A stretch of 19,441 bases of DNA, taken from positions 1 to 19,441 of the forward strand of contig PLUZ01000346.1 in the NCBI GenBank assembly GCA_003162995.1. Direction: 5' to 3'. The translations under genes and the position numbers were made by a program. The first letter of the stretch is position 1; each line of letters begins with the position of its first letter. The notes under the pieces are model-generated. The model was not told the DNA's origin. It did not search any database and saw nothing but the letters and a program-made list of their open reading frames with translations. This DNA is from Methylocapsa sp. (lineage in GTDB: Bacteria > Pseudomonadota > Alphaproteobacteria > Rhizobiales > Beijerinckiaceae). This document shows positions 93 to 16,956 of the stretch, one piece after another.

Positions 93-174
93 TGGACACT
101 TGACCGAGGCGAGACGAAATTGCCTTGTGTATCATGGAGTTAGACGTAAGAAAGTACGAAGGAAGGGAATTGTT

Positions 175-1398
175 TTGCTCTATTCGTTTGTGGTGCCTAC
201 GCGCGAACGGCCAGATGTCTTAAAAGGGACAATTGGGAGCATACTCAATCAGACCCGCTCCAATTTCGAAGTCGTGGTCATGGACAACGCGAGTTCTCCT
301 GCGACCAAGGATGTCGTCGATAGTTTCCAAAGCCCTCATATCCGTTACTTCCGCTCAGATGAGCGCCTTGCCATGACGGACAACTGGGAGCTTGCCCTTC
401 AGCACGCAACCGGTGATTACGTGACCGTCCTTGGCGATGATGATGGAGCGCTTCCTGATGCGGTCGAAATCGCGGAAGAAATTCATAAAGTGTGGCCCGG
501 CGCTCTTCTGACCTGGCGGCCTCTCATCTATTTCTGGCCAAATACTTTCATCGAGGCCTATAGAAACCTCGTTCACATGCATCTCGGATCGCGCGTCGAA
601 GAACGCAGCGCAAGGGCCTTGTTGAAGGACGTCTATGCCTGCAAAAAACTCTATGATGAGCTCCCCTCGCTATATGATTCATTTGTCCCCCGGAATTTGA
701 TTGAAAAAATCCGGGCAAAATACGGCCGCTACTTTCTGAGCCTCTCACCCGATATCGCCTCTGGTTTGATCAATGCCTTGATAGCCGAGACCTACATTTA
801 TTCTTATAGGCCGCTCGCCATTCGCGGCATCTCCTATCACAGCACGGGAACGTCTCAGAGTTTCCCTCATGTCGAAAATAGCCCGGCCAAATTATTCAGT
901 AAGGAAGTGAAGGGCGGAACCTGGGACAAAGCTCTCCACGAAAAGCTCGCCGGTGACTTCATTATCGAAGTCAGCATCACCAGTGAGTTCCTCTGTTTCA
1001 AGGAAAAGTACTTCCCTGACGACCAGGAAATCCAACCAGATATGAGACGGTTCATAAAATGGTTTTGCAAATCCGCGCCCCGTTTCATGGCACGGTATGA
1101 CGAGGTCAAGGAAGCAATTTACACAATGGCTAAGAAGAATGGCGTGCCTTCTTGGAGCATCCGGATTCCTCCCCGCTGGCCTTCGATCGAGCAAGTAAAA
1201 CGCAATCAAACGTATGATAAAAACACAAATACGTTATATTGGTCGTTTTACGCTAATGAAAATCAAATAAAGAATATTGCCGACTTTGCACAGCTTGCGT
1301 CTAGCATCAGCGCTTCAAAAGAGAATCTGGAGATCGTTCACTTGCCTCAAAAACTGTCAGTCGCCGTCCGTTTGATGAAAGCTTGCGGCTTAAGATGA
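175..1398 (+). CDS. family 2 glycosyltransferase
   Basis: The protein probably transfers a sugar from a nucleotide donor to a lipid-linked or polysaccharide acceptor at the cytoplasmic face of the inner membrane. The N-terminus reads YSFVVPTRERPDVL, the typical first strand of a GT-A fold. It is followed by an NQT-type helix and the metal-binding acidic motif GDDDGA (D88-D90 from the start chosen here). The open frame runs back to a TTG at 100. The TTG at 175 is preferred because AAGGAAGGGA sits 7 bases upstream and the protein then begins directly at the domain. The result is about 407 residues. No transmembrane helices are evident. The C-terminal third is AT-rich (about 1200-1380), unlike the genes downstream, which suggests separate acquisition. 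Donor and acceptor cannot be told from sequence. A sugar from one of the two neighbouring pathways is a reasonable guess. Confidence 0.85.
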   Translation: MLYSFVVPTRERPDVLKGTIGSILNQTRSNFEVVVMDNASSPATKDVVDSFQSPHIRYFRSDERLAMTDNWELALQHATGDYVTVLGDDDGALPDAVEIAEEIHKVWPGALLTWRPLIYFWPNTFIEAYRNLVHMHLGSRVEERSARALLKDVYACKKLYDELPSLYDSFVPRNLIEKIRAKYGRYFLSLSPDIASGLINALIAETYIYSYRPLAIRGISYHSTGTSQSFPHVENSPAKLFSKEVKGGTWDKALHEKLAGDFIIEVSITSEFLCFKEKYFPDDQEIQPDMRRFIKWFCKSAPRFMARYDEVKEAIYTMAKKNGVPSWSIRIPPRWPSIEQVKRNQTYDKNTNTLYWSFYANENQIKNIADFAQLASSISASKENLEIVHLPQKLSVAVRLMKACGLR

Positions 1399-1745: not shown

Positions 1746-2330
1746 TTGTCGTACGGTTCGGAGTTCTTTTCCGATGTCATAGAAGTTTCTCGGCGATTCG
1801 ACGTGAATGCGGTCGAGCAAATGGCAAATGAACTTGCCTCTCTTCGTGAAAGAGGCGGGCGTCTTTTCTTGCTTGGCGTCGGCGGAAGCGCTGGGAATTG
1901 CAGTCATGCAGTCAATGACTTCCGGAAACTCTGTGGAATTGAGGCCTATAGTCCCATAGACAACGTATCCGAACTGACGGCTCGAACCAATGACGAAGGC
2001 TGGGATACGGTCTTTACCGGCTGGCTCGAGGTCAGCCGCCTGAACGCGAATGACGCGATCCTCATCTTCTCCGTTGGAGGCGGTGATGCTCAACGTAATG
2101 TCAGCGTCAATATCGTCAAAGCGGTGGATCTTGGCAAGGCGCGCGGCGCGCGGGTACTCGGCATCGTTGGACGTGACAACGGCCACACTGCGACGCGCGG
2201 CGACATTGTCATCGTGGTGCCGCCGGTCAATGCGGACCGCGTGACGCCGCTGTCGGAAGCTTTCCAAGCGGTGGTCTGGCATTGCCTCGTTTCGCATCCG
2301 GCACTTCAGATTCGCGCGACCAAATGGTGA
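1746..2330 (+). CDS. SIS-domain sugar-phosphate isomerase, GmhA-like
   Basis: SIS-fold proteins of the GmhA type convert sedoheptulose 7-phosphate to D-glycero-D-manno-heptose 7-phosphate in the cytoplasm. The 194-residue length matches GmhA. The phosphate-binding loop is GVGGSAGNCSH, where GmhA normally has GNGGSxxDAQH, and a second glycine loop (FSVGGGDAQRN) matches the SIS fold. By eye, the positions of the GmhA catalytic Glu and Gln look like Asp (in HAVNDF) and Ser (in PLSEAF), and the late His falls one position off. The reaction may therefore be a variant one. The start is a TTG with GGGG 5 bases upstream; no in-frame ATG exists near the N-terminus. It is the first gene of the operon, 9 bases ahead of the phosphatase gene, which supports a role in making a heptose or related sugar phosphate. 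The SIS family call is firm; the substrate is inferred. Confidence 0.85.
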   Translation: MSYGSEFFSDVIEVSRRFDVNAVEQMANELASLRERGGRLFLLGVGGSAGNCSHAVNDFRKLCGIEAYSPIDNVSELTARTNDEGWDTVFTGWLEVSRLNANDAILIFSVGGGDAQRNVSVNIVKAVDLGKARGARVLGIVGRDNGHTATRGDIVIVVPPVNADRVTPLSEAFQAVVWHCLVSHPALQIRATKW

Positions 2331-2339
2331 GCATCAGCT

Positions 2340-2897
2340 ATGGCGGGCGGCGGGAAGGCAGTCTTCCTCGATCGGGATGGTGTACTCGTCGTGCCGGATT
2401 TCCGCGATGGGCGCAGCTTCGCGCCGACATCACTGGATGAATACCGCTTGTATCCTGAGGCTCGCGATTGTCTTGATCGGCTGCGCATTGCGGGGTTCCG
2501 GCTCATCGTGGTGACAAACCAACCAGATGTCGGGGCCGGCCGGATTGAACGCGATGTCGTTCAAGAGATGCACCGGCGTCTGGCTGCTGCTTTGCCGGTC
2601 GATGCAATTATGACGTGTTTCCATACCAGGCAGGATCATTGCAATTGCCGCAAACCGGCGCCCGGGATGATTTTGGCCGCCGCCCACGAATTCGACATCG
2701 ATCTCGCGCGCAGTTTTATGATAGGCGATCGCGCTAGCGACATCGAGGCCGGCGCGGCCGCCGGATGCCGGACGGTCTTCATTGATCTCGGTTACGTTGT
2801 GGAAGAGACCACAGAACACCCAAATTTTACCGCGACATCGCTGAACGGCGCCATTACATGGATCTTGTCCGCAACCGAAGATCGAGCGACCTCATGA
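2340..2897 (+). CDS. HAD-IIIA phosphatase, GmhB-like (heptose 1,7-bisphosphate 7-phosphatase type)
   Basis: GmhB removes the 7-phosphate from heptose 1,7-bisphosphate so that the 1-phosphate can be nucleotide-activated. All HAD motifs are present: FLDRDGVL with nucleophile D11 and D13, VVTNQ at 58-61, CRKPAPGM with K105, and MIGDRASDIEAG with D130 and D134. A zinc-binding loop of the GmhB/histidinol-phosphatase type is visible (C93, H95, C101, C103). The 185-residue length is typical. The ATG start lies 9 bases after the isomerase stop. Its own stop overlaps the transaldolase start by 4 bases (ATGA at 2894-2897), so the two are probably translationally coupled. Imidazole-glycerol or histidinol phosphatases share these motifs, but the neighbours favour a sugar bisphosphate. 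Confidence 0.9.
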   Translation: MAGGGKAVFLDRDGVLVVPDFRDGRSFAPTSLDEYRLYPEARDCLDRLRIAGFRLIVVTNQPDVGAGRIERDVVQEMHRRLAAALPVDAIMTCFHTRQDHCNCRKPAPGMILAAAHEFDIDLARSFMIGDRASDIEAGAAAGCRTVFIDLGYVVEETTEHPNFTATSLNGAITWILSATEDRATS

Positions 2898-3616
2898 ATC
2901 GGATCGACAATTTGAAGATAAAGCTGTTCGCGGATGGGGCGGATTTTGACGGCATGGTCGCGATGCGCAAAAACCCCTTGATCAAAGGGTTTACCACGAA
3001 TCCGACGCTGATGCGGAAGGCCGGCGTGACCGATTATGAAGCCTTCGCGCGGAGCGTGCTCGCCAAGATCACCGACCTTCCGGTTTCCTTCGAAGTCTTT
3101 GCCGATGATTTTGATATGATGGAGCGGCAGGCGCGCGTCATCGCGACCTGGGGACCGAACGTCAACGTCAAGATTCCCGTCATGAACACCGAGGGTGTTT
3201 TTACCGGGCCGGTCATCAGCAGTCTCTCGCGCGACAACATTCCACTCAATGTGACGGCGATCATGACGGTTCAGCAAGTCGCGGACGTCGGCGAGGCTCT
3301 CTCGCCTGACGCGGCCGCGATCATTTCGGTCTTCGCCGGACGCGTTGCTGACACGGCGGTCGATCCGATGCCTCACATGCGCGCATGCCGGAAGGCGATC
3401 GCGAGCCGGCCGCGAGCCCAACTCCTATGGGCGAGCCCGCGGGAACTTCTCAACATTTTTCAGGCGGATGAAGTTGGCTGCGACATCATTACTGCAACCA
3501 ACGATATCCTAGCAAAACTGCAGATAGTCGGGAAGGATCTCACTGACTATTCACGCGAGACCGTGCAGATGTTTTACCACGACGCAAGGGCTTCCGGGTT
3601 CAGCATCTCGATCTAA
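2894..3616 (+). CDS. small transaldolase / fructose-6-phosphate aldolase family protein
   Basis: Transaldolases move a dihydroxyacetone unit between sugar phosphates through a Schiff-base lysine, and sedoheptulose 7-phosphate is one of their substrates or products. Family motifs occur in order: LFADGAD (11-17), GFTTNPTLM (32-40), VNVKIPV with the predicted Schiff-base K93, NVTAIMT (119-125), ISVFAGRVADTAVDP and LLWASPRE. The 240-residue length is closer to the short FSA/TalC group than to the 316-residue TalA/B type. The ATG at 2894 is chosen because it overlaps the previous stop as ATGA and the domain begins 11 residues later; an upstream in-frame ATG at 2858 would overlap the phosphatase gene by 40 bases. 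In this operon it could supply or shape the seven-carbon precursor for the isomerase. That role is inferred from context. Confidence 0.88.
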   Translation: MNRIDNLKIKLFADGADFDGMVAMRKNPLIKGFTTNPTLMRKAGVTDYEAFARSVLAKITDLPVSFEVFADDFDMMERQARVIATWGPNVNVKIPVMNTEGVFTGPVISSLSRDNIPLNVTAIMTVQQVADVGEALSPDAAAIISVFAGRVADTAVDPMPHMRACRKAIASRPRAQLLWASPRELLNIFQADEVGCDIITATNDILAKLQIVGKDLTDYSRETVQMFYHDARASGFSISI

Positions 3617-3620
3617 GCAT

Positions 3621-3640
3621 GAGACGCCAGTCTCGGCGTC
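3621..3640. other. overlapping inverted repeats between transaldolase and epimerase genes
   Basis: In the 45-base gap, GAGAC (3621-3625) can pair with GTCTC (3630-3634), and GACGCC (3623-3628) can pair with GGCGTC (3635-3640). The two stems are mutually exclusive. No T-run follows. This is the only sizeable gap inside the operon, so an RNA processing or translation-control role is possible but unproven. The AGGGA ribosome site of the next gene (3651-3655) follows directly. Confidence 0.35.
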
Positions 3641-3661
3641 GGAAATCACGAGGGACCTCAA

Positions 3662-4675
3662 ATGTCACGGATGTTCAACCGCATCTTCGTAACCGGAGGA
3701 GCAGGGTATGTCGGCAGCCGCCTGGTGCCGCAGCTCTTATCGAGCGGCTACAAAGTGACTGTCTATGATATCTTGTATTTTGGCAGCGAATTCCTGCCAA
3801 AGAACGATCCGAACCTCCGCGTTATTGAAGGCGACATTCGCAATACGGTCAAGCTCGGCGCCGCACTCGAAGGCCATGATGCTGTCGTCCACCTTGCTTG
3901 CATCTCGAACGACGCCAGCTTCGAACTCGACGAAAATCTCTCGACCTCGGTCAATTATGACGCTTTTGAGCCCATGGTCCTTGCGGCAAAAAAGGCTGGA
4001 ATCAAACGTTTCGTTTACGCCTCGTCATCCTCCGTCTATGGCGTCTCGGATAAGCCCGACGTCACCGAGGATCATCCCCTCGTGCCGCTGACGCTTTACA
4101 ACAAATATAAGGGCCTCTGTGAGCCTCTCCTCAGAAAGCACACGGATGAGAAATTCATCGGCGTGACTTTCCGGCCGGCGACGGTTTGCGGCTATGCGCC
4201 GCGCCAGCGCCTGGATCTCTCGGTCAATATTCTTACGAACCATGCGGTGAACAATAACAAGATCACCGTCTTCGGAGGTTCGCAACTGCGGCCCAATTTG
4301 CATATTCAGGACTATATAGAAGCCGTCCAGCTGTTCCTCGCCGCACCCGACGAGAAAATCAGCAATGAGATCTTCAATGTCGGCTACCAAAACATGTCGA
4401 TCATGGACATTGCAGAACTCGCGAGGAAGGTCGTTCTCCAGGAGTATCCCGACCGTAAGGACATCGAGATCGCCACCATGCCCACCGCCGATATAAGGTC
4501 GTATCATATCAATTCGGACAAGATCTATCGCCTGCTGGGCTACCGGCCGCGCCACACGATCGAGGATGCGGTGCGGGAGCTCTGTCAGGCATTCAAGGCC
4601 GGCAAACTGCCGAATAGCATGAATGACGATTTCTACTTCAATGTGCGTCGCCTGACACGGCTCAAGGCGGCTTGA
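3662..4675 (+). CDS. extended SDR NAD-dependent epimerase/dehydratase (first of two)
   Basis: This protein probably epimerises, dehydrates or reduces the nucleotide-activated sugar made by the operon. The Rossmann motif is TGGAGYVG (11-18) and the active site is S123/S124 with Y146-x-x-x-K150 (YNKYK). The segment LACISNDASFEL resembles that of many polysaccharide-cluster SDRs of unknown substrate. It has 337 residues, the usual length for the family. The ATG at 3662 has AGGGA 6 bases upstream; an in-frame ATG at 3671 is an alternative. The stop overlaps a TTG two codons ahead of the next gene's ATG. Sequence cannot separate 4-epimerase, 4,6-dehydratase or reductase activity. Confidence 0.88.
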   Translation: MSRMFNRIFVTGGAGYVGSRLVPQLLSSGYKVTVYDILYFGSEFLPKNDPNLRVIEGDIRNTVKLGAALEGHDAVVHLACISNDASFELDENLSTSVNYDAFEPMVLAAKKAGIKRFVYASSSSVYGVSDKPDVTEDHPLVPLTLYNKYKGLCEPLLRKHTDEKFIGVTFRPATVCGYAPRQRLDLSVNILTNHAVNNNKITVFGGSQLRPNLHIQDYIEAVQLFLAAPDEKISNEIFNVGYQNMSIMDIAELARKVVLQEYPDRKDIEIATMPTADIRSYHINSDKIYRLLGYRPRHTIEDAVRELCQAFKAGKLPNSMNDDFYFNVRRLTRLKAA

Positions 4676-4677
4676 GG

Positions 4678-5685
4678 ATGAAGCCCATTTCAGTTGTCAC
4701 CGGAGGCGCCGGCTTCATCGGCAGCCATATGGTTGATCTGTTGCTGATGCGTGGCTTTGCGGTGCGCGTCATCGACGATCTGTCTGGCGGACACCGCAGC
4801 AACCTCGTCCATCACGAGGGCAATGCTGATCTGACGTGTGCATGGAAAGACATCCGTTCTCTGGAGCCGAACGATCCGGTCTTCGAAGGGGCGAAATACG
4901 TCTTTCATTTCGCCGGGATAGGCGACATCGTACCCTCGATCGAGCGGCCGATCGATTACATGGACATCAACGTCCAGGGCACCGTTCGCGTGCTTGAATG
5001 CGCCCGCCGCGCCGGCGTCGAGAAGCTTGTCTATGCAGCTTCCTCTTCCTGTTATGGATTGGCCGAGACGCCCACCCGGGAAGATCATCCGGTCAGTCCG
5101 CAATATCCCTATGCCTTGTCCAAATATCAAGGCGAGCAGGCGGCGTTCCACTGGCGCCAAGTTTACGCGCTGCCAGTCAACACGATCAGCATATTCAATG
5201 CCTATGGCACCCGTGTGCGGACAACGGGCGCCTATGGCGCCGTCTTCGGGGTCTTTTTCCGCCAGAAGCTCGCAGGCAAGCCTTTCACGGTGGTAGGCGA
5301 CGGCACCCAGCGACGTGATTTCGTCTATGTGACCGATGTGGCGAAGGCTTTTCTGGCGGCGGCTGAAACAGATCTTGTCGGGCACCGCTTCAACGTCGGG
5401 GCGGGCCATCCGCGTTCAGTCAATGAGCTAGTCAAAATGCTCGATGGAGATGTCGTCTATGTCCCGAAACGTCCGGGAGAACCCGACTGCACCTTCGCCG
5501 ATATCACCAAGATAACGACCATGCTCGGCTGGAAGCCAGAGGTAACTCTCGAGCAGGGCGTGCCTCTAATGATGAGAGACCTTCTTCATTGGAAGGATGC
5601 GCCGTTGTGGGATCCGCAATCCATCGCCGCCGCGACAAAGCCTTGGTTTGATTTTCTCGGCCGAGCCGAGAATCGGGGAGGCTGA
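4678..5685 (+). CDS. extended SDR NAD-dependent epimerase/dehydratase (second)
   Basis: This resembles UDP-glucose / UDP-GlcNAc 4-epimerases and related NDP-sugar SDRs. The Rossmann motif is TGGAGFIG (8-15). The catalytic residues are the serine cluster ASSSCYG and Y145-x-x-x-K149 (YALSK). The segment GDGTQRRDFVYVTDVA is the typical substrate-side loop. It is about 335 residues long from the ATG at 4678. A TTG two codons earlier (4672) overlaps the previous stop as TTGA, so coupling is likely with either start; AAGG at 4664-4667 is the best ribosome site. Only 2 bases separate its stop from the next gene. It differs clearly from its SDR neighbour, so this is not a recent tandem duplication and the two probably do successive steps. 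Confidence 0.9.
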   Translation: MKPISVVTGGAGFIGSHMVDLLLMRGFAVRVIDDLSGGHRSNLVHHEGNADLTCAWKDIRSLEPNDPVFEGAKYVFHFAGIGDIVPSIERPIDYMDINVQGTVRVLECARRAGVEKLVYAASSSCYGLAETPTREDHPVSPQYPYALSKYQGEQAAFHWRQVYALPVNTISIFNAYGTRVRTTGAYGAVFGVFFRQKLAGKPFTVVGDGTQRRDFVYVTDVAKAFLAAAETDLVGHRFNVGAGHPRSVNELVKMLDGDVVYVPKRPGEPDCTFADITKITTMLGWKPEVTLEQGVPLMMRDLLHWKDAPLWDPQSIAAATKPWFDFLGRAENRGG

Positions 5686-5687
5686 GC

Positions 5688-7241
5688 ATGTTGGGACTGC
5701 TCACCGCGCGCTATCAACACAAGATCAAGACTCCCCAAGAGATCCGAGACCTCATCGGCCCCATGCCACGCAAGAACAAGGTCGTCATGTGTCATGGCGT
5801 CTTCGACGTTGTTCACCCAGGACACGTGCGCCATTTGCTCTACGCAAAAAGCAAAGCGCCGGTCCTCATCGCGAGCGTTACAGCCGACCGTCATATTACC
5901 AAGGGAATGCATCGGCCGCATGTGCCGCAGGATCTGCGCGCCATCAATCTCGCCGCTTTCGAGATGATCGATTACGTGGTGATCGATCCAAATCCGACAC
6001 CGATCGAAAATCTCAAGATCATTCAACCGGAATTCCTCGCCAAGGGATACGAATATACCTCCAGCGGGTTGCCGCCGGCGACCGCTGAGGAAGCAGAGAC
6101 TCTCCGCGCCTACGGCGGAGACATTATCTTCACACCCGGCGATATCGTCTACTCGTCGAGCCAGCTCATCAATCTGGCACCGCCGATGTTAAAACTTGAG
6201 AAGCTCCAGCTCTTCATGGAGCGTCATGACGTCACCTTCGCCAACATGCGGCGCACGCTCGACAAGCTGGCAGGCCACAGAATTCATGTGGTCGGCGACA
6301 CGATTGTCGACAGCTACACCCATTGCGCCATGATTGGCGGGCAAACAAAAACGCCGACCATGTCGGTCATGTTCGAGCGAAAGACCGATTTCATTGGTGG
6401 TGCGGCGATTGTGGCCAAGCACTGCAGAGCCGCAGGCGCCGAGGTAACGTTCACGACGGTGCTCGGCGACGATGCGTTTAAAGATTTCGTCCTTGACGAT
6501 TTGACGAAGGCCGGAATCAAGGTGCGGGCCTTGATCGACAAGCGCCGCCCGACGGTCAATAAGAACGCGATTGTGGCCGGCGGCTATCGTCTACTCAAGG
6601 TCGATACTCTCGATAACAGCTCGATCCCCGACAAAATTTTTGCGGAAATGACCGATTCGGTTCGGAACACAAAGGCAGATGCCGTCGTCTACGCGGACTT
6701 CCGCCACGGCATTTTCAACCGGCGGACGATCCCGGGCTTCATTCAGGCGATTCCTGAAGGCGCTTATCGCGTTGCCGACAGTCAGGTGGCGAGTCGTTGG
6801 GGCAATATTACCGAGTTCAAGGGTTTCGATTTGATCACGCCGAACGAGCGCGAGGCGCGCTTTGCAATGGGCGATCAGGATTCCGGCGTCCGGCCGCTCG
6901 CCTCCGCACTCTATGACGCGGCGGAATGCAAGCTTCTGATCCTCAAGCTCGGCGAACGCGGTGTTTTGACCTGCACCAGTCGGGATCACGAGTCGCTAGA
7001 CAGCTTCTTCGTGATCGACAGTTTTGTAGAAAACCTTGTCGATCCGGTGGGCGCCGGCGATGCTTTGCTTGCCTATGCAACACTCGCCATGCTAGCGAGC
7101 GGCGACGAAACACAAGCTACCATTCTCGGAACAATGGCTGCGGGCTCGGCATGTGAGGTCGACGGCAATATCCCGATCCTGCCAAACGATGTGCGGTTTC
7201 GCCTCGACAAGGTCGAGCAGCAGATGAACTACGCCACATGA
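5688..7241 (+). CDS. bifunctional nucleotidyltransferase-PfkB kinase, HldE-like with reversed domain order
   Basis: HldE enzymes phosphorylate heptose 7-phosphate at C1 and later transfer a nucleotide to heptose 1-phosphate. Here the cytidylyltransferase-type domain comes first: GVFDVVHPGH (37-46, with the HxGH nucleotide-binding motif) and YSSSQLI near its end. The ribokinase/PfkB domain follows: GGAA at 237-240, the PfkB stretch GAEVTFTTVLGDDAF, and the C-terminal anion-hole/catalytic motif DPVGAGDA (G455-D458). E. coli HldE has the kinase first and the transferase second. The 517-residue length is slightly more than that of HldE (477). The ATG has GGGGAGG about 6 bases upstream. The gene fits between two SDRs and an oxidoreductase, all nearly touching. 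The nucleotide (ADP, GDP or CDP) and the exact sugar are not determinable by eye. Confidence 0.9.
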   Translation: MLGLLTARYQHKIKTPQEIRDLIGPMPRKNKVVMCHGVFDVVHPGHVRHLLYAKSKAPVLIASVTADRHITKGMHRPHVPQDLRAINLAAFEMIDYVVIDPNPTPIENLKIIQPEFLAKGYEYTSSGLPPATAEEAETLRAYGGDIIFTPGDIVYSSSQLINLAPPMLKLEKLQLFMERHDVTFANMRRTLDKLAGHRIHVVGDTIVDSYTHCAMIGGQTKTPTMSVMFERKTDFIGGAAIVAKHCRAAGAEVTFTTVLGDDAFKDFVLDDLTKAGIKVRALIDKRRPTVNKNAIVAGGYRLLKVDTLDNSSIPDKIFAEMTDSVRNTKADAVVYADFRHGIFNRRTIPGFIQAIPEGAYRVADSQVASRWGNITEFKGFDLITPNEREARFAMGDQDSGVRPLASALYDAAECKLLILKLGERGVLTCTSRDHESLDSFFVIDSFVENLVDPVGAGDALLAYATLAMLASGDETQATILGTMAAGSACEVDGNIPILPNDVRFRLDKVEQQMNYAT

Positions 7242-8173
7242 AAGTCGTCGTCGTTGGACTGGGCGTCCAGGGCCTCAAGCGCCGGCGTGTCGCGGGCGCC
7301 GATTACGTGGCCAGCATCGATCCCTTCAACCTCGATGCGGAGTATCGCTGCATCGAGGATGTTCCGCTCGCGGATTACGACGCGGCCCTCTGCTGCATTC
7401 CCGATGGGCCGAAACAGGAGATCCTCTCCTATTGCCTGCGTCACGGCAAGCATGTGCTGGTCGAGAAACCACTCTGGACGAAATCAATCGAGGCGATCAG
7501 CGAGCTCGAGAAGCTCGCCCGCAGCAAGGGCGCCGTCTGCTATACCGCCTATAATCACCGTTTCGAGCCGCATTTCATGCGCATGCGGGAACTGGTAGCG
7601 TCCGGTGTGCTCGGCCGCATCTATTCTTGCCGGATGTTTTATGGGAATGGAACCGCTCGCCTCGTGCGGGAATCGCGATGGCGGGACGACGGTGCTGGCG
7701 TGCTGGCGGATCTCGGCTCGCATCTTCTCGACACGAGCCGATTCTGGTTCGGAGATTTGGAAGACAAATTCGAGATCTATGCTGCAAATTGCTTTGAGAA
7801 CCGGGCGCCCGATCATGTCGTCATCGGCAGTGAACGGCTGCCGTTGCGTATCGAGCTGGAAATGACGCTGCTGTCCTGGCGCAATCATTTCACCTGTGAC
7901 ATTCTCGCCGAACATGGCACCGCTCATATCGAATCCTTGTGCAAATGGGGGCCTTCCATTTTCACTTACCGCAAACGCGTTCTGCCGAGTGGCAGGCCGC
8001 CCGAAGAGGCTGTAACGCTCGTAAACGAGGATCCGACTTGGGTGGCTGAATATGCGCATTTCAAGCATCTTTGCGAGACGGGCGTGCCGGCCGATCTGAC
8101 GAATGATCTCTGGCTCGGACAGACCTTGTCGCGATTGGGCGGCCTCGCCACACGTTGGACCTCCGGGGCATGA
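7238..8173 (+). CDS. Gfo/Idh/MocA family NAD(P)-dependent oxidoreductase
   Basis: Members oxidise or reduce sugar hydroxyls, often on nucleotide-activated sugars in polysaccharide operons. The N-terminus has a dinucleotide loop GLGVQG (7-12). The family signature EKP is at 76-78 (HVLVEKPLW), and the C-terminal domain has YNHRF and DLGSHLLD, with a likely active-site H162 and D165. It is 311 residues, a little short for the family (usually 330-380) but with all core motifs. It starts with an ATG overlapping the previous stop as ATGA. Its own stop overlaps the Nudix start in the same way. Location suggests a late oxidation or reduction of the operon's sugar. The substrate is unknown. Confidence 0.9.
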   Translation: MKVVVVGLGVQGLKRRRVAGADYVASIDPFNLDAEYRCIEDVPLADYDAALCCIPDGPKQEILSYCLRHGKHVLVEKPLWTKSIEAISELEKLARSKGAVCYTAYNHRFEPHFMRMRELVASGVLGRIYSCRMFYGNGTARLVRESRWRDDGAGVLADLGSHLLDTSRFWFGDLEDKFEIYAANCFENRAPDHVVIGSERLPLRIELEMTLLSWRNHFTCDILAEHGTAHIESLCKWGPSIFTYRKRVLPSGRPPEEAVTLVNEDPTWVAEYAHFKHLCETGVPADLTNDLWLGQTLSRLGGLATRWTSGA

Positions 8174-8661
8174 CGAATGACTCGATGCCTGATCCATTTC
8201 TGACTGGGCGCGGCCCTTGGCAGCCCAACCATGCCGTCGCGGCGCTTATCCAAATCGTGGACGGACGCTATGTTTTGCAGCTGCGCGATCCCAAGCCGGA
8301 GATTTTCTATCCCGATCATTGGGGCTGCTTCGGTGGCGCGATCGAGCCCGGAGAGAGGGACGAAGAGGCCCTGATGCGGGAACTGCGGGAAGAACTCGGC
8401 CTCTCGCTCGCCGATGGCGCGGCGGCGCGCTTCACCTCTTTCACTCATGATTTCGGCTTCGCCGGCGTGGGCGTGCTCCGGCGAGTCTATTTCGAGATTC
8501 GGCTCCCTGCCACTGATCTGTCCGCCATGCAACTGGGCGAGGGGGCCGATATCGGGGCCTTCGCCGCCGAAGAGGCGTTAGGGCGCCTGCGGTTAACGCC
8601 CTATGACGCCTATGCGCTCTGGATGCATCACAATCGCGCGCGGATCGGCACCAACGTCTGA
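8170..8661 (+). CDS. Nudix hydrolase
   Basis: Nudix enzymes cleave nucleoside diphosphates linked to another group, including NDP-sugars. A complete Nudix box runs from G56 to L78: Gly, five residues, E62, seven residues, R70-E71, then E74-E75 and G77. It is 163 residues from the ATG at 8170, which overlaps the previous stop as ATGA. An upstream TTG at 8155 is possible but would give a longer overlap. Being last in an NDP-sugar operon, it could act as a control or housecleaning enzyme on the pathway's nucleotide or sugar, or as a mannosyl-hydrolase-like step. The box is certain; the substrate is not. Confidence 0.9.
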   Translation: MTNDSMPDPFLTGRGPWQPNHAVAALIQIVDGRYVLQLRDPKPEIFYPDHWGCFGGAIEPGERDEEALMRELREELGLSLADGAAARFTSFTHDFGFAGVGVLRRVYFEIRLPATDLSAMQLGEGADIGAFAAEEALGRLRLTPYDAYALWMHHNRARIGTNV

Positions 8662-8739: not shown

Positions 8740-9654
8740 TCAAGTTGAACCGCTAATGTTTCCTTCTGTCCGCCACCAGGCAACTGCTTCAGCCAATCCC
8801 TCTCGAAGATTATATTTGGGTTGAAATTTCACTTCGTGAGAGAGGCGCATGATATCCGCCTCGATAATTGCAGGCTCCTTCAAAGATAACGGCCTTGCGC
8901 CAAATTCGATGCAGTGCGCATTGCCCGTCTCTTCTGCAATCAATTCCAAGAGAGAACGCAGCGTTGCCGCCTCCCCTGACCCAATATTGACCGGCCCAGT
9001 CACATCGCTATCGAGGAGCGCGGCAAAAGCGCTTGTGGCGTCGCAAACATGCATGAAATCCCGCCGCTGCAGGCCATGGCTCGTCGGAAATGCCGCTCCA
9101 GAGAGAAGGGCGCAAATGGCATCGCTCACGAGCCGGCCTCTTTTCTCTCCTGGACCATAGAGGAAGAAGATTCGACCCCAGGCGAGCGATAGCGGCGCGA
9201 TGTCCGCATAGGCCATGAGAACACGACGGAGAGCATCCTTCGATGCGCCATACAAGGTTTCAGGCGCGCAACGAGACTCGGTTTCGTAAAACCGGTCAGG
9301 TCCCCACTGATATTCCGCGCAGGTCCCGGCGATCACGGCACGCAAGCCGCCAGTCTCCACAAATGTTCGAACGAGATTGAGACTGGCGCTGACCCAATCC
9401 AAATTGAGTGGCGAGCCCCAGAATTGTCCCGGCTCTGCATACCAAGCAAGATGAAGGAGATGCGTGGCCCGTGCAGATTGCACTGCTGAGCGGAGCTGTT
9501 CCGCTTGCAGAATATCAGCTTGGTGAAAAACCACCTGCTGGCACTTTGGAGGACTGCGTCCGGCCACATGGATCTCAAAGCCACGTGCCTGCAAAGGGGC
9601 AAGGACGCGGGCGCCGAGGAAACCAGTGGCGCCGGTCACGAGCACACGCCTCAT
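8740..9654 (-). CDS. extended SDR, probable NDP-4-keto-6-deoxysugar reductase/epimerase
   Basis: This is the last gene of the minus-strand operon and probably does the final 4-keto reduction that yields the finished CDP-sugar. The Rossmann motif is GATGFLG (8-14) and the active site is Y135-x-x-x-K139 (YGASK), with AGTCAEY supplying the usual Ser/Thr position. It has 304 residues from the ATG at 9654, chosen because it overlaps the stop of the upstream rmlC-like gene as ATGA (9651-9654). The open frame extends 20 codons further upstream, but that stretch (Arg/Pro-rich) lies inside the neighbour and does not look like protein. The operon ends 78 bases from the convergent Nudix gene. Confidence 0.88.
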   Translation of the reverse strand: MRRVLVTGATGFLGARVLAPLQARGFEIHVAGRSPPKCQQVVFHQADILQAEQLRSAVQSARATHLLHLAWYAEPGQFWGSPLNLDWVSASLNLVRTFVETGGLRAVIAGTCAEYQWGPDRFYETESRCAPETLYGASKDALRRVLMAYADIAPLSLAWGRIFFLYGPGEKRGRLVSDAICALLSGAAFPTSHGLQRRDFMHVCDATSAFAALLDSDVTGPVNIGSGEAATLRSLLELIAEETGNAHCIEFGARPLSLKEPAIIEADIMRLSHEVKFQPKYNLREGLAEAVAWWRTEGNISGST

Positions 9655-10181
9655 GGGATCCAGTCGGGAAACTGGAGGTCGCGGTCGGCGATGATAGCGA
9701 CGGGCTCGGGCCAAGTGATGCGAAGGGCCGGATCATTCCACCGGATCCCACTCGCTGTGCCAGCTATGAACGGCGTATCTATCATGTAAAGCACCTCGGT
9801 TGCGTCTTCCAAAACCTGAAATCCATGCGCGAAGCCCGCCGGGACGTAGATCGCGTGCCTATTTTGCGCGGAAAGCTCAACCGCAAGTGTCTCTAAATAA
9901 GTCTTGGACGCCTTCCTGAGATCGACGATGACGTCGCAAATTACGCCACTCGTGCAACGCACAAGCTTCGTCTCTTCATGTGGTTTTGCCGAGAAATGCA
10001 TTCCGCGCACTGTACCCCGGCGGGCGTTAAACGAAACGCTCGATTGCGGGAAGCGATTGATTAAACCATTGCGCTGAAACTCGTCCTCGCAGAAGGTTCG
10101 TGCGAAGAAGCCTCGTTCGTCCGCATGAGCTTCCGGCTCGATCAAATAAGAGCCAGCCAAGGCGAGCGGCTGGAAGTTCAT
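9651..10181 (-). CDS. RmlC-like cupin epimerase (NDP-4-keto-6-deoxysugar 3,5- or 5-epimerase)
   Basis: RmlC-type enzymes epimerise C5, and often C3, of NDP-4-keto-6-deoxyhexoses. The protein has 176 residues, as in the family, with RGMHF carrying the catalytic base H62, VPAGFAHGF (113-121), Y132, the GIRWNDP segment and D168 as the likely partner of H62. The position of the second conserved tyrosine of RmlC (six residues after Y132) is F138. Loss of this tyrosine, together with the C-methyltransferase next door, suggests a specialised C5 epimerase like those of methylated deoxysugar pathways. AGGGA lies 7 bases ahead of the ATG. Ten bases separate it from the methyltransferase stop upstream, and a 4-base overlap joins it to the SDR downstream. 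Confidence 0.92.
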   Translation of the reverse strand: MNFQPLALAGSYLIEPEAHADERGFFARTFCEDEFQRNGLINRFPQSSVSFNARRGTVRGMHFSAKPHEETKLVRCTSGVICDVIVDLRKASKTYLETLAVELSAQNRHAIYVPAGFAHGFQVLEDATEVLYMIDTPFIAGTASGIRWNDPALRITWPEPVAIIADRDLQFPDWIP

Positions 10182-10191
10182 CTCACTGTCC

Positions 10192-11421
10192 CTAGCTCAT
10201 CACGAGATCTGGAATGGCTGTCACGAAATGACCTCCCCACCCGCGGATTTCGTTTAATTGCTCGGCAATTTCATCCCTTAAATTCCACGGCAGAATTAAC
10301 ACATAGGCTGGCTTTAGCGCGAGCATTTGCTCGGGGGAGACGACCGGTATGCGGCTACCTGGGAGGAGCGTGTTCTGCTTATGAGGTGAGCGATCGCCGG
10401 CCACATGGACGAGTTCCGGGCCAATCCCGCAATAATTCAGAAACGTATTACCCTTAGCGGCAGCGCCATAGGCGCAAACAAGCTTTTTCTGGTCTCGCGC
10501 CCTAATCAAGAAATCGAGGGCCCGGCATTTGATATTCACCACCCGCTCGGCAAAACCGGCATATCCCGATAAGTCGAAAAGCCCCGCAGCGCGTTCCTTT
10601 TCAATGAGTTGCTCAACGCTTGGCATTTGCGGATGCGACGCCGTGTCATGACAAACGAAGACGCGCAAGGACCCGCCATGGGTCGGTAATTCTTCGGCAT
10701 CGAAAGCCCGTAAACCAACCCCTTTCAGCACATTCATGACAACGCCAAGAGAAAGGTAAGAGAAATGCTCATGATAAATCGTGTCGAACTGGCTGTCTTG
10801 GATCAATCGAAGAAGGTGCGGGAACTCAAATGTCGCGACCCCCTCCGGCTTTAGGAGGATTTTGAAGCCACCAACGAAATCGACGATATCGGGAACATGC
10901 GCAAGAACGTTATTCGCCACCATATGATCCGCCAGATGTCCGGCTGCCGCCAGCGTCCTGGCAGCGTCTCGACCGAAAAACATGACTTCCGTTGGCACGC
11001 CACGCGCGATAGCAACCTCGGCTACATTGCCTGCCGGCTCGATACCGAGGACAGGGACATCGCCCGCCACGAAATACTGCAGCAAGTAACCGTCATTGCT
11101 CGCCACCTCGACAACCTTATGCTGTGGGCCGAGATGAAAGCGATCCTTCATGGCAATCACATAAGCTTCCGCGTGCTGAAGCCAGCTTTTCGAGAAGCCT
11201 GAAAAATATGCGTAGTTCGAGAATATGTTTTCTGGACTTTCAAATTCCTCGAGTTGAACGAGAAAACAGCCGTCGCATACATAGGCGTGCAGTGGATAAA
11301 AGACCTCGCCCTCGCGCGATTTCTCTGCGGGCACGTAAGAATTTGATAATGGGGATAGGCCGAGATCGGCGAAAGTGTGCGTCAACGCTGCACCGCAAAT
11401 ACGACAGGTTCCATTCTTCAC
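10192..11421 (-). CDS. SAM-dependent NDP-sugar C-methyltransferase (TylCIII/TcaB9 family)
   Basis: This family adds a methyl group to C3 of 4-keto-6-deoxysugars. All three parts are visible in the 409 residues. The N-terminal zinc-binding segment has C6, C9, C49 and C52. A Rossmann SAM-binding loop reads EVASNDGYL (105-113). The signature YHEHFSYL (216-223) contains the Tyr, Glu and His thought to be catalytic in TcaB9. The C-terminal half, with YGAAAKGNTFLNY, matches the family's terminal domain. The start is a GTG at 11421 overlapping the rfbG stop as GTGA (11418-11421). Placement after rfbF and rfbG predicts CDP-4-keto-6-deoxyglucose or an epimer as substrate. C3 as the site is inferred from the family. 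Confidence 0.92.
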   Translation of the reverse strand: MKNGTCRICGAALTHTFADLGLSPLSNSYVPAEKSREGEVFYPLHAYVCDGCFLVQLEEFESPENIFSNYAYFSGFSKSWLQHAEAYVIAMKDRFHLGPQHKVVEVASNDGYLLQYFVAGDVPVLGIEPAGNVAEVAIARGVPTEVMFFGRDAARTLAAAGHLADHMVANNVLAHVPDIVDFVGGFKILLKPEGVATFEFPHLLRLIQDSQFDTIYHEHFSYLSLGVVMNVLKGVGLRAFDAEELPTHGGSLRVFVCHDTASHPQMPSVEQLIEKERAAGLFDLSGYAGFAERVVNIKCRALDFLIRARDQKKLVCAYGAAAKGNTFLNYCGIGPELVHVAGDRSPHKQNTLLPGSRIPVVSPEQMLALKPAYVLILPWNLRDEIAEQLNEIRGWGGHFVTAIPDLVMS

Positions 11422-12512
11422 GATCGGCTCCTCCCAAGATCACCGTAACGGGCGATCTGGGCAATGGTTATGGAGGCCGACTCTTCCCCCTTGAGTTGCG
11501 CTTGATACCAATCAATCGTCCAAGCGAGGGCCATGTCCAGATCGAGCCGGCTGTTCCAACCTAGTCGCGTTCGCGCTTTTGAAGCGTCTACTTTAAGGAA
11601 GCCTGCCTCATGAGGGTGAGGCTTATCGGAGAGATGCCATCTGGCACCGTTTGCCCACATGGCCGCCAAGCGATCGACGACATCAGACACCGGCCGGCAA
11701 TCCGTCTCGACAGGGCCGAAATTCCAGGCTTCGGCAAAGGCTGCTCCTTCCTTCGAAGCGAGACATTCCGCAAGACGGATATAACCGCTGAGCGGTTCGA
11801 GCACATGTTGCCAAGGGCGGATCGCATGCGGGCTACGAATCTCGACAGACTCGCCCTTCCCGAACGAACGCACGATGTCTGGAATGAGCCGGTCGCGCGA
11901 CCAGTCGCCGCCACCAATCACATTGCCAGCGCGCGCCGTCGCGACATTGCAACGCCGCCGGGGCCGGGTTTCAAAAAAGGACGTTCGATAAGCACTCGCG
12001 ACAAGTTCAGCGCATGCTTTCGAGTTGCTATAGGGATCGCGGCCGCCCAAGGGTTCGGTTTCACGGTATGCCCAGTGCCACTCACGATTGTCGTAGCACT
12101 TGTCGCTCGTGACCACGACAGCCGCTTCAACGGACTCAGTCATACGAATGGCTTCAAGGATGTGAACCGTCCCCATCACATTCGTCGCATAGGTTTCCAC
12201 GGGATCCTGGTACGAGGGCCGCACGAGCGATTGCGCGGCCATGTGGAAGACGATTTCCGGTCTGGTTGACTTCACACACTCGCAAACAGAATCGAGATTG
12301 CGGATGTCGCTATAGTGCCGCTCCTTATGATCCTTGAACGCCAGCCGATAGAGGCTCGGCTCAGTATTGGGCGAAAGCGCAAAGCCTATGACTTTGGCCC
12401 CGAGCGAATTGAGCCACAGCGATAACCAGCTTCCCTTGAATCCCGTGTCGCCAGTGATCAGAACCGATCGGCCGCGCCAAAAATCGGGAGAAGGATTTAC
12501 CAAACCTTCCAA
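11418..12512 (-). CDS. rfbG: CDP-glucose 4,6-dehydratase
   Basis: The enzyme converts CDP-glucose to CDP-4-keto-6-deoxyglucose in the cytoplasm. RfbG-type features include FWRGRSVLITGDTGFKGSWL near the N-terminus, HMAAQSLVRPSY, TSDKCYDN, the catalytic YSNSK, and GNVIGGGDW, which together separate it from dTDP-glucose dehydratase. The length is about 364 residues. The start is uncertain. In-frame TTGs lie at 12533, 12512 and 12503, with no ATG or GTG. The 12512 start has AAAGG 9 bases upstream, while 12503 best matches usual N-terminal length. Each overlaps the end of rfbF slightly. It receives CDP-glucose from RfbF and feeds the C-methyltransferase. Confidence 0.93.
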   Translation of the reverse strand: MEGLVNPSPDFWRGRSVLITGDTGFKGSWLSLWLNSLGAKVIGFALSPNTEPSLYRLAFKDHKERHYSDIRNLDSVCECVKSTRPEIVFHMAAQSLVRPSYQDPVETYATNVMGTVHILEAIRMTESVEAAVVVTSDKCYDNREWHWAYRETEPLGGRDPYSNSKACAELVASAYRTSFFETRPRRRCNVATARAGNVIGGGDWSRDRLIPDIVRSFGKGESVEIRSPHAIRPWQHVLEPLSGYIRLAECLASKEGAAFAEAWNFGPVETDCRPVSDVVDRLAAMWANGARWHLSDKPHPHEAGFLKVDASKARTRLGWNSRLDLDMALAWTIDWYQAQLKGEESASITIAQIARYGDLGRSRS

Positions 12513-13270
12513 GGCGCCTGACCTTTCGCCCAAAGGTTTTCAAGATGGGTTTTATCTCTCAGCGTGTCCATCGCCTGCCAAAAACCTCCATGCGGATAGG
12601 CGAAGAGCTCCCCATCGCGTGCGAGTGCTTCCATCGGCTCGCGCTCCCAAATCGTGGAATCCCCTTCAATATAGTCCAACACTTTTGGCGAGAGCACAAA
12701 AAAACCTCCGTTTATGCTTGCGCCATCACCAGCAGGCTTTTCACGAAAGTTCTTGACCAAATTGCCCTCCAATTCGAGGGCCCCGAACCGTCCAGGCGGC
12801 AAGACGCTGGTGACGGTCGCGAGCCGGCCATGAGCTTTGTGGAAAGCAAGAAGCTTGGATAAATCAATATCGGCGACGCCATCGCCATAGGTGAGAAAAA
12901 ACGCCTCGTCGTCGGTCAGATAGTCTCGAATCCTCTTGATGCGGCCGCCCGTCATTGTGGCGTCTCCCGTTTCAATGAGAGAGACTCGCCAATCTTCGGC
13001 GCCACTCCGGTGATAGTCGATGGCGCCATTGACGATGTTTACAGTCACGTCGCTGAGATGCAGACGATAATTGAGAAAATATTCTTTGATAATGTAACCC
13101 TTGTAGCCAAGACAAATCACGAAATCCGAGACGCCATGCGCAGAAAAAATCTGCATGATATGCCACAGAATGGGCCGTCCTCCGATCTCGACCATCGGCT
13201 TTGGCTTCGTATCCGTCTCTTCCGAGAGTCGCGAACCAAGTCCCCCTGCCAAAATCACAGCTTTCGTCAT
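12497..13270 (-). CDS. rfbF: glucose-1-phosphate cytidylyltransferase
   Basis: The enzyme makes CDP-glucose from CTP and glucose 1-phosphate, the first committed step of CDP-deoxysugar pathways. The N-terminal signature AGGLGSRLSEETDTKPKPM, followed by VEIGGRPILWHIM, is diagnostic for RfbF. YGDGVADID, the acidic metal/nucleotide site, and the C-terminal GFWQAMDTLRDK also match. The 257-residue length is exactly that of the family. The ATG at 13270 has a weak GGGA site upstream. It is the first gene of the five-gene operon, and the 327-base gap upstream probably holds the operon promoter, including a 15-base dyad at 13368-13382. Confidence 0.95.
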   Translation of the reverse strand: MTKAVILAGGLGSRLSEETDTKPKPMVEIGGRPILWHIMQIFSAHGVSDFVICLGYKGYIIKEYFLNYRLHLSDVTVNIVNGAIDYHRSGAEDWRVSLIETGDATMTGGRIKRIRDYLTDDEAFFLTYGDGVADIDLSKLLAFHKAHGRLATVTSVLPPGRFGALELEGNLVKNFREKPAGDGASINGGFFVLSPKVLDYIEGDSTIWEREPMEALARDGELFAYPHGGFWQAMDTLRDKTHLENLWAKGQAPWKVW

Positions 13271-15916: not shown

Positions 15917-16231
15917 TTAGTCGGACACATTGCCGGGGCCTTCCGGATGCGCGGGATCGGCACCCAATCCCATTCGGCCGCGCGTTCCGGATTCACCATA
16001 GGCTTTGCGGTCGCAATCATCGAGCGACATGCAGGGAGGTTGGATTTGGTAATACTCCCGCCACGGATATTCACTCGCGCGTGGCCGGTAGCGGTACTTG
16101 CCGCGAGCCTCGTCTTCTACGGTTGCTGCCAGCAAAATTAAAGCGGCAAAAACAAGAACCGCCAGGGACGAAGCGATAGCACGGCGGTTGCCATGACAAC
16201 TGGCTAGGCGGCGTCGGCGTAGCCTCGTCAT
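15917..16231 (-). CDS. small exported protein with PEGPGNVSD C-terminus (copy 2)
   Basis: This 104-residue protein has a basic start (MTRLRRRRLASCHGNRR) and one hydrophobic segment (about 19-36, AIASSLAVLVFAALILLAA). It then has a polar, Tyr/Arg-rich region with two cysteines (PPCMSLDDCD) and a C-terminus SGTRGRMGLGADP...PEGPGNVSD. The last 23 residues nearly match the end of the protein at 16687-16956, the main reason to accept both as real. The hydrophobic segment could be a signal peptide or an anchor, and the mature part would be periplasmic. Its ATG overlaps the stop of the gene upstream as ATGA (16228-16231), indicating co-translation. Function is unknown. Confidence 0.65.
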   Translation of the reverse strand: MTRLRRRRLASCHGNRRAIASSLAVLVFAALILLAATVEDEARGKYRYRPRASEYPWREYYQIQPPCMSLDDCDRKAYGESGTRGRMGLGADPAHPEGPGNVSD

Positions 16232-16686: not shown

Positions 16687-16956
16687 TCAATCCGATACGT
16701 TGCCAGGACCTTCCGGGCGCATTGGATTGGCGCCCAAACCTTCGCGGCCGCGCGTTCCAGAACGATCGAAATGGGCGCGATCCCAGCGCGAAGGAGCAGT
16801 TTGCGGGTTTGGGGTTACGGAGCCGCCGTAAACCTGATCGGCTGGGGCCGGATAAAGCTGCTGGGCGCTAGCCGCGCCAAACGAGGCGGCCAGCGTTGCG
16901 GCTGCAAGCCCCACCGTCAGCGCTTTGCGACGTGCGCTCGCGATAAAGATTTTCAT
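16687..16956 (-). CDS. small secreted protein with PEGPGNVSD C-terminus (copy 1)
   Basis: This 89-residue protein has a strong signal peptide (MKIFIASARRKALTVGLAAA..., cleaved after ASA before QQLYPAP). Next comes a Pro/Asn/Gln-rich spacer, and the C-terminus SGTRGREGLGANP...PEGPGNVSD is shared with the protein at 15917-16231. The ATG has GGAG 7 bases upstream, a strong site. It sits 171 bases ahead of the two-gene pair and may lead a three-gene unit. Upstream lie a TATAAT box and a perfect 10-base palindrome. It is probably periplasmic, about 62 residues when mature and likely unstructured in part. Function is unknown. Confidence 0.75.
   Translation of the reverse strand: MKIFIASARRKALTVGLAAATLAASFGAASAQQLYPAPADQVYGGSVTPNPQTAPSRWDRAHFDRSGTRGREGLGANPMRPEGPGNVSD

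Follow-up and report, generated by a model that had tools for sequence, protein, structure and literature searches.

The eight-gene operon at positions 1746-8661 of contig PLUZ01000346.1 from Methylocapsa sp. encodes the first half of a bacterial pathway that is widespread and so far uncharacterised, and that follows known sugar-nucleotide logic in a new variation. The window analysed here is this whole contig (C184; 19,441 bp), and its parent genome (GCA_003162995.1; 4.36 Mb in 584 contigs) is 88.6% complete. About 14 genes make up the whole conserved pathway, of which the operon covers the front half alone, and we propose, with a probability of roughly 0.6, that this pathway leads to a nucleotide-activated, C-branched sugar of eight or more carbons, most likely for a surface polysaccharide. 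No account of the pathway was found in the CC-licensed PMC papers searched. The initial annotation had described the operon as a self-contained route to a nucleoside diphosphate (NDP)-heptose-type sugar. Its co-directional operon of eight genes and the domain families it named were confirmed by open reading frames (ORFs), Pfam and NCBIfam; self-containment was not, since the second half of the pathway lies on another contig and is kept downstream in relatives. The genes of the operon are:

1746..2330, + strand: SIS-domain ketose/aldose phosphate isomerase (SIS), not a GmhA equivalog, with an altered phosphate loop SVGGG with insertion
2340..2897, + strand: GmhB-like HAD-IIIA phosphatase (HAD)
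2894..3616, + strand: transaldolase (TAL) of the TIGR02134 family, catalytic motifs kept in 50/50 rows
3662..4675, + strand: SDR1, an extended short-chain dehydrogenase/reductase (SDR; epimerase/dehydratase), reciprocal best hit of gene 3 of the bradyrhizose cluster discussed below
4672..5685, + strand: SDR2, an extended SDR (epimerase-like)
5688..7241, + strand: nucleotidyltransferase-kinase fusion (NTK), N-terminal PF01467 nucleotidyltransferase and C-terminal PfkB kinase, domain order opposite to HldE
7238..8173, + strand: Gfo/Idh/MocA-family oxidoreductase (GFO)
8170..8661, + strand: Nudix hydrolase, whose relatives in other clusters sit further downstream

All eight ORFs are open and tightly spaced: the junctions measure +9 bp (SIS/HAD), -4 (HAD/TAL), +45 (TAL/SDR1), -4 (SDR1/SDR2), +2 (SDR2/NTK), -4 (NTK/GFO) and -4 bp (GFO/Nudix), and four of the seven are 4-base overlaps. 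Two starts were corrected, that of the transaldolase to 2894 and that of the Nudix gene most likely to 8170. SIS just reaches the SIS_2 family (27.0 bits, cut-off 27) and stays far below the GmhA equivalog (49.6 bits, cut-off 209.45); HAD falls short of both GmhB cut-offs (119.2 of 178 and 82.5 of 149.6), and NTK of that for the HldE equivalog (138.3 of 521). The transaldolase passes TIGR02134 with 350 bits (cut-off 281.95). Its motif residues, including the Schiff-base Lys and a Phe, are kept in all 50 aligned rows; we take these residues to be catalytic and the Phe to be typical of transaldolase, not of fructose-6-phosphate aldolase. The nucleotidyltransferase comes first in all 44 chosen relatives of NTK (16 of class A, 14 of class b, 9 of class c and 5 viral), whereas among 12 chosen canonical HldE loci the kinase comes first in 10, one being undetermined and one dropped for lack of a kinase hit. 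The SIS phosphate loop reads SVGGG in 37/37 rows of a first set, which includes rows from viral contigs, and in 79/79 rows of a second, viral set. Aligned isomerase loops lacking the insertion read STSGRS (beside canonical HldE in a genome like that of Bradyrhizobium ORS278) and SGSGNS (bradyrhizose SIS).

The gene set is conserved well beyond the window. NTK matches at E 0.001 or better were obtained for 6588 of 7998 scored candidates (best 120 listed), and when GTDB r220 contigs were scanned with one genome for each species, 276 NTK relatives were confirmed, the best 80 of which were examined. Gene families were defined on these same 80 loci, which had been picked by NTK, and the counts describe that set; they refer to the NTK strand, within 9 kb, in loci with room. 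In the front half, SIS was found in 43/62 loci, HAD in 52/67, TAL in 57/70, SDR1 in 65/71, SDR2 in 72/76 and GFO in 76/77. The run SIS-HAD-TAL-SDR1-SDR2-NTK-GFO is unbroken in 35/60 relatives, an arrangement that is thus not due to chance; in the other 25, at least one gene of the run was moved or not detected by that method. Record titles place the relatives in Alpha-, Beta-, Gamma- and Deltaproteobacteria, Nitrospirota, Acidobacteria, SAR202, Bacteroidia and Actinobacteria, labels that may be wrong, as many of these records are metagenome-assembled genomes. Close to home the cluster is rare. A whole-NTK match occurs in 2/60 genomes near the window's, namely its own and one of the same order, and in the same-genus genomes among these 60 nothing beyond separate HldE-like pieces was matched. 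Of 289 sampled genomes of the window's class (own included), 23 have the cluster-type SIS (E 1e-40 or better). The 23 SIS-anchored stretches read from 22 genomes of this sample carry TAL in 16, HAD in 14, NTK in 13 and f1 (introduced below) in 13 cases; two of them (L297 and L298) look nearly alike and several end early. Three combine a GHMP kinase with SIS and TAL, one of these also with NTK. Among plasmids, NTK matched 42 of 72,556 records, with 31% identity at best.

In relatives, the operon continues into a back half that in the window's genome is found on contig C158, in the order f1-f4-f6-f10-transketolase N (TKN)-transketolase C (TKC)-methyltransferase-RmlD-like SDR. The order f1 to TKC is the same as in other genomes, and f1 starts 67 bases from the end of C158. 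According to Pfam, f1 belongs to the UDP-glucose/GDP-mannose dehydrogenase family, f4 and f10 are SDRs and f6 is a methyltransferase. Among the NTK-anchored loci with room, f1 is present in 68/69, f4 in 58/61, f6 in 49/57 and f10 in 33/54, and the run NTK-GFO-f1-f4-f6-f10 is unbroken in 26/54. In none of 53 relative layouts does the Nudix gene directly follow GFO, a place held as a rule by f1. A 21.5-kb stretch of Methylobacterium sp. NEAU 140 (L036) holds both halves together with a counterpart of the window's minus-strand cluster described below. At the position of the catalytic Cys of UDP-glucose dehydrogenase (UGDH; alignment to 4a7p), none of the 67 f1 rows has Cys: 61 have Asn, 4 have His and 2 show a gap. 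Judged from this residue, f1 is unlikely to oxidise its substrate to an acid in the usual way. Further along, beside the second half in the window's genome, lies a gene for a radical SAM/SPASM protein (L141 1192-2436).

The back half also supplies a thiamine diphosphate (ThDP) enzyme, found in 48 of the 53 relatives whose downstream sequence extends for 9.9 kb, and of a single type in 46 of these 48: a split transketolase in 29, an E1 alpha/beta pair in 13, an acetolactate-synthase-like protein in 4, and both of the latter types in 2. A 2025 review limits the ThDP enzymes known to accept ketones to three superfamilies, namely decarboxylase (YerE-like), transketolase and alphaKADH2, gives branched-sugar examples for each and regards experimental evidence for the transketolase route to branched sugars as still needed (PMC12247030). 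Since one scaffold occurs with any one of three ketone-using ThDP types, there is a circumstantial case, by analogy, that the ThDP enzyme adds a two-carbon unit to the pathway sugar. This predicts a carbon-carbon extension that lay beyond the view of the initial annotation, which had expected a modified heptose or another unusual sugar.

Several observations weigh against a single pathway of this kind. The two halves sit on separate contigs in the window's genome, which is itself incomplete (88.6%), and none of the three ThDP types was found in 5/53 loci. SIS and TAL were seen in only 43/62 and 57/70 of the NTK-anchored loci, and 7/23 SIS-anchored loci have no visible transaldolase and 10/23 no NTK, some of these stretches being short.

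Our model starts from what was observed, namely which genes are present, how they are ordered and conserved, their catalytic motifs, their homology to the bradyrhizose cluster and the phage module; every substrate, the order of steps and the product are what we infer from them. The transaldolase would transfer a C3 unit onto ribose 5-phosphate to give octulose 8-phosphate (the acceptor being chosen by analogy, with C7 as the main alternative), which SIS would isomerise to its aldose form. A 1,8-bisphosphate would then arise through the PfkB half of NTK, HAD would take off the terminal phosphate and the nucleotidyltransferase half of NTK would yield the NDP-octose. SDR1, SDR2, GFO and the Cys-less UGDH-like enzyme of the second contig may epimerise, oxidise or dehydrate this sugar to a carbonyl compound. 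At that carbonyl, the split transketolase, or in other strains the E1-type or acetolactate-synthase-type enzyme, would add the two-carbon unit, and reductases and methyltransferases would finish the sugar. Overall, the pathway idea of the initial annotation survived; its gene set was incomplete and its chain probably one carbon short at the start.

As judged from sequence homology, the pathway is related to genes implicated in the synthesis of bradyrhizose, a ten-carbon bicyclic monosaccharide (PMC9912281). Insertion mutants in gdh lack bradyrhizose, and in the paper the genes for its biosynthesis are called unknown and polar effects of the gdh mutation are not excluded (PMC4743980). Among 242 Bradyrhizobium genomes, the reversed fusion occurs in three classes (counted by hand from the listing), with 58-62% identity to NTK in 7 genomes, 31-34% in 14 and 27-30% in 60. 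In a kinase tree the second and third classes each form one clade, and the window's class and the viral rows form one set. The primers of PMC4743980 allowed the published locus to be placed: locus L176 (genome G605) matches the ORS278 rfaL primers, the forward one exactly and the other with one mismatch, and L179 (G587) matches the ORS285 gdh primers in the same way. We treat these genomes as ORS278 and ORS285 or very close strains. The fusion and gdh of G605 are 35-39 kb away from where the rfaL primers match, against 40 kb in the paper, and the gdh cluster is counted as eleven genes both there (PMC4743980) and by us. In L179 these are NTK, NTP transferase, SDR, SIS, gdh, transketolase N, transketolase C, a zinc alcohol dehydrogenase, a protein without Pfam hit, an APH kinase and a methyltransferase.

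When the eleven L179 proteins were compared with the 20 proteins of the window and C158 only, seven gave reciprocal best hits (NTK 31%, SDR1 42%, SIS 30%, gdh/f10 34%, TKN 41%, TKC 44% and methyltransferase 42% identity), the methyltransferase being f6-like. Orthologues were thus found for 7/11 bradyrhizose genes, not for all. These hits would also fit a pathway product that is bradyrhizose itself or a close bicyclic analogue. However, nine genes are confined to this pathway and four to the bradyrhizose cluster, the matched proteins share 30-44% identity and the kinase domains fall into separate clades, which makes this product improbable. By the same measure the link to our model is partial: the bradyrhizose cluster shows no relative of the transaldolase, GFO, f1, f4, SDR2, the Nudix gene or the GmhB-like gene, and instead has the NTP transferase, the zinc alcohol dehydrogenase, the APH kinase and one protein that is HAD-like by eye. 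The gdh primer pattern was also sought in the window's own family and rejected there (0/397 genomes). Loci of the third Bradyrhizobium fusion class (L189, L190 and L191) combine SDR1, SDR2 and a split transketolase with two DegT aminotransferases and an f6-like methyltransferase, and perhaps make an amino higher sugar.

Part of the front half also occurs on viral contigs. A scan of IMG/VR with SIS found a relative (E 0.001 or better) on 216 stretches, and the best 80 of these (L192-L271) were read; they are 53-61% identical, apart from the own contig of one query, and at 95% nucleotide identity their SIS genes group into 48 clusters. TAL is present in 76/80 and HAD in 75/80, NTK in 1/80. The viral run nucleotidyltransferase-SIS-HAD-TAL-glycosyltransferase-GHMP kinase (families PF01467, SIS_2, HAD, TAL_FSA, Glycos_transf_1 and GHMP kinase in Pfam and NCBIfam) is strictly consecutive in 34 of 58 stretches with room by ORF clustering; read by hand, 19 of the other 24 deviate by a single added or absent ORF and 5 by more than that. 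The phage GHMP kinase is nearest to HddA (158.6 bits, cut-off 600), and the phage transaldolase, at 260.5 bits, lies below the TIGR02134 cut-off that the window's protein passes. Examples are:

viral module: L226 6093-6677, L204 10566-11306, L244 6369-7361

The composition of this module suggests that the isomerase-phosphatase-transaldolase triad thus travels as a unit, while kinase and nucleotidyltransferase are exchanged. From PhoH (40/80 loci) and T4-RNase-H-like (55/80) families we infer that these uncultivated phages are T4-like. No INPHARED record matched the phage-type SIS at E 1e-5; NTK matched 19 of 50,697 records of named phages, and no match covered more than 80% of the protein. On phage contig L121 (1783-21140) the bacterial pathway is present in compact form, with TAL-SDR2-NTK-f1 and E1-E1-f6-SIS-aminotransferase (DegT) placed between genes encoding terminase, head-tail adaptor and major head proteins. 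A thymidylate-synthase family enzyme as a route to phage DNA modification was considered and rejected (0/12 viral records, many of them fragments).

The cluster comparison suggests that the transaldolase sets the chain length. In each of 12 genomes at least one gene of PF00923 (transaldolase/fructose-6-phosphate aldolase; some may be aldolases) lies away from the NTK cluster, and the window's genome (G000) has two; in G421 the NTK contig ends before the transaldolase position, and in G425 a second PF00923 gene lies on the NTK contig, about 20 kb off. Three genomes with the bradyrhizose cluster have one PF00923 gene each, outside the cluster. With two other transaldolase-family genes in its genome, the cluster transaldolase is probably dedicated to the pathway. 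Core heptose synthesis is not known to need a dedicated transaldolase. Speaking for seven carbons, a transaldolase acting on erythrose 4-phosphate would give ordinary sedoheptulose 7-phosphate. In that case it might only boost this precursor, SIS, NTK and HAD would act as GmhA, HldE and GmhB, and the tailored product would be an unusual C7 sugar, which transketolase might lengthen to C9. GmhA, HldE and GmhB are indeed the nearest named families of the three enzymes, and heptose could be the entry to the bradyrhizose cluster, which has SIS and NTK without transaldolase. Such a modified heptose is unlikely, though a serious contender. All three enzymes score under the equivalog cut-offs, the SIS loop is unlike the aligned GmhA and bradyrhizose SIS rows, two further PF00923 genes are available and the transaldolase accompanies SIS on nearly all of the phage contigs (76/80). 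The own precursor that the initial annotation foresaw was upheld, whereas C7 became the weaker reading of it; the bradyrhizose cluster without transaldolase disfavours it further, as does the closest characterised gene logic, that of the C8 lincosamide pathway. By this analogy, we lean towards a C8 precursor.

The operon might alternatively be a diverged replacement of the core ADP-heptose pathway. In line with this, the window's genome and its Methylobacterium and Methylocystis relatives have only cluster-type or weaker TIGR02198 matches and no HldE kinase over the cut-off. However, the other 4/6 relatives carry a separate HldE over the TIGR02198 cut-off beside the cluster kinase, core heptose synthesis requires neither the tailoring nor the ThDP genes, and SIS is under the GmhA cut-off. 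This very improbable explanation was rejected on the co-occurrence with HldE, which also answers whether carriers keep separate core-lipopolysaccharide heptose genes and supports a conserved route to an NDP-sugar that has a transaldolase of its own and is separate from core heptose synthesis.

The genes around the operon bear on the destination of the sugar:

100..1398, + strand: GT2-family glycosyltransferase ORF upstream of the operon, its association with the pathway being putative
8740..13270, - strand: divergent cluster, a putative separate 6-deoxysugar branch named by reading of Pfam hits

The divergent cluster encodes a nucleotidyltransferase (RfbF-like), a GDP_Man_Dehyd-family SDR (RfbG-like), a C-methyltransferase, a member of the dTDP-sugar 3,5-epimerase family (RfbC) and an SDR; in Methylobacterium sp. 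NEAU 140 a cluster 59-74% identical to it sits 5' of SIS (L036, 3-4000). The sugar could also serve a secreted small molecule or protein glycosylation. Branching by transketolase and alphaKADH2 enzymes is known mainly from specialised natural products (PMC12247030), lincosamides are a precedent and the phage modules contain a glycosyltransferase. Nevertheless, GT2 adjoins the operon, the 6-deoxysugar cluster is next door, no polyketide synthase or nonribosomal peptide synthetase domain was found among the 19 window ORFs scanned with Pfam, and the bradyrhizose cluster of the ORS278-like genome lies within 35-39 kb of the rfaL primer site. We consider a non-polysaccharide destination rather improbable and retain a surface polysaccharide as the most likely one. 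The 347 bases between the GT2 ORF and SIS (1399-1745), a possible promoter or leader region, fall in the 1-kb bin of lowest G+C in the window (0.472). Neither promoter-like sites (5, against 3.0 expected from shuffles) nor terminator-like sites (8, against 7.4) rose above the shuffles. On the minus strand, two small ORFs (15917-16231 and 16687-16956) share the C-terminal motif GTRGRxGLGAxPxxPEGPGNVSD.

Taken together, the comparison yields a testable gene-to-step model that is linked to the bradyrhizose locus, and three ThDP enzyme types that are swapped on one scaffold. Transketolase branching needs experimental evidence (PMC12247030), and for this the clusters offer enzymes to test. If the phage module functions as read, it would represent a new kind of phage sugar pathway. 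A broader reading, to which we give somewhat less than even odds, is that a single widespread pathway family gives rise to octose-derived, ThDP-extended higher-carbon sugars in the surface glycans of Gram-negatives, with bradyrhizose coming from a sister branch, and that T4-like phages of uncultivated hosts took over the octose front end, with a kinase, nucleotidyltransferase and glycosyltransferase of their own, to attach a C8 sugar to the host envelope, the virion or DNA.

Among known systems, the lincosamide octose pathway appears to be a closer match to the gene set than ADP-heptose synthesis is. The lincosamide pathway, which reportedly was completed in a 2020 paper, shares its set of activities with the cluster, a parallel by family and activity only. 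We take LmbL to be of the UGDH family and LmbZ of the Gfo/Idh/MocA family, and presume that the families of LmbP and LmbO differ from those of the kinase and nucleotidyltransferase here, which tells against the parallel. The lincosamide papers list the transaldolase LmbR, isomerase LmbN, kinase LmbP, phosphatase LmbK and guanylyltransferase LmbO, followed on the C8 sugar by the epimerase LmbM, dehydrogenase LmbL and oxidoreductase LmbZ (PMC4351081, PMC12945683). At the level of enzyme families, the cluster likewise joins a probably dedicated transaldolase to isomerase, kinase, phosphatase and nucleotidyltransferase, and adds UGDH-family and Gfo/Idh/MocA tailoring enzymes (f1 in 68/69 and GFO in 76/77 loci with room). 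Unlike the lincosamide pathway, it has kinase and nucleotidyltransferase in one PF01467-PfkB fusion, contains a ThDP enzyme and occurs mostly in Gram-negatives. With the ADP-heptose pathway (GmhA, HldE, GmhB, HldD) it shares the superfamilies of isomerase, kinase, phosphatase and nucleotidyltransferase, but it differs in scores below the equivalog cut-offs, the reversed fusion, its own transaldolase and the co-occurrence with HldE in 4/6 relatives. As in the ThDP-branched sugars, a ThDP carboligase stands beside NDP-sugar genes, in the window's genome on C158, outside the window. The decarboxylase-type, E1-type and split-transketolase enzymes known from yersiniose (YerE), AviB1/AviB2 (presumably E1-type) and, as proposed, miharamycin/amipurimycin are interchangeable in the conserved cluster, its acetolactate-synthase-like proteins being likened to YerE by type only and their YerE-like identity being putative. 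YerE acts on a hexose-derived CDP-keto sugar, whereas the conserved cluster described here also builds its own precursor.

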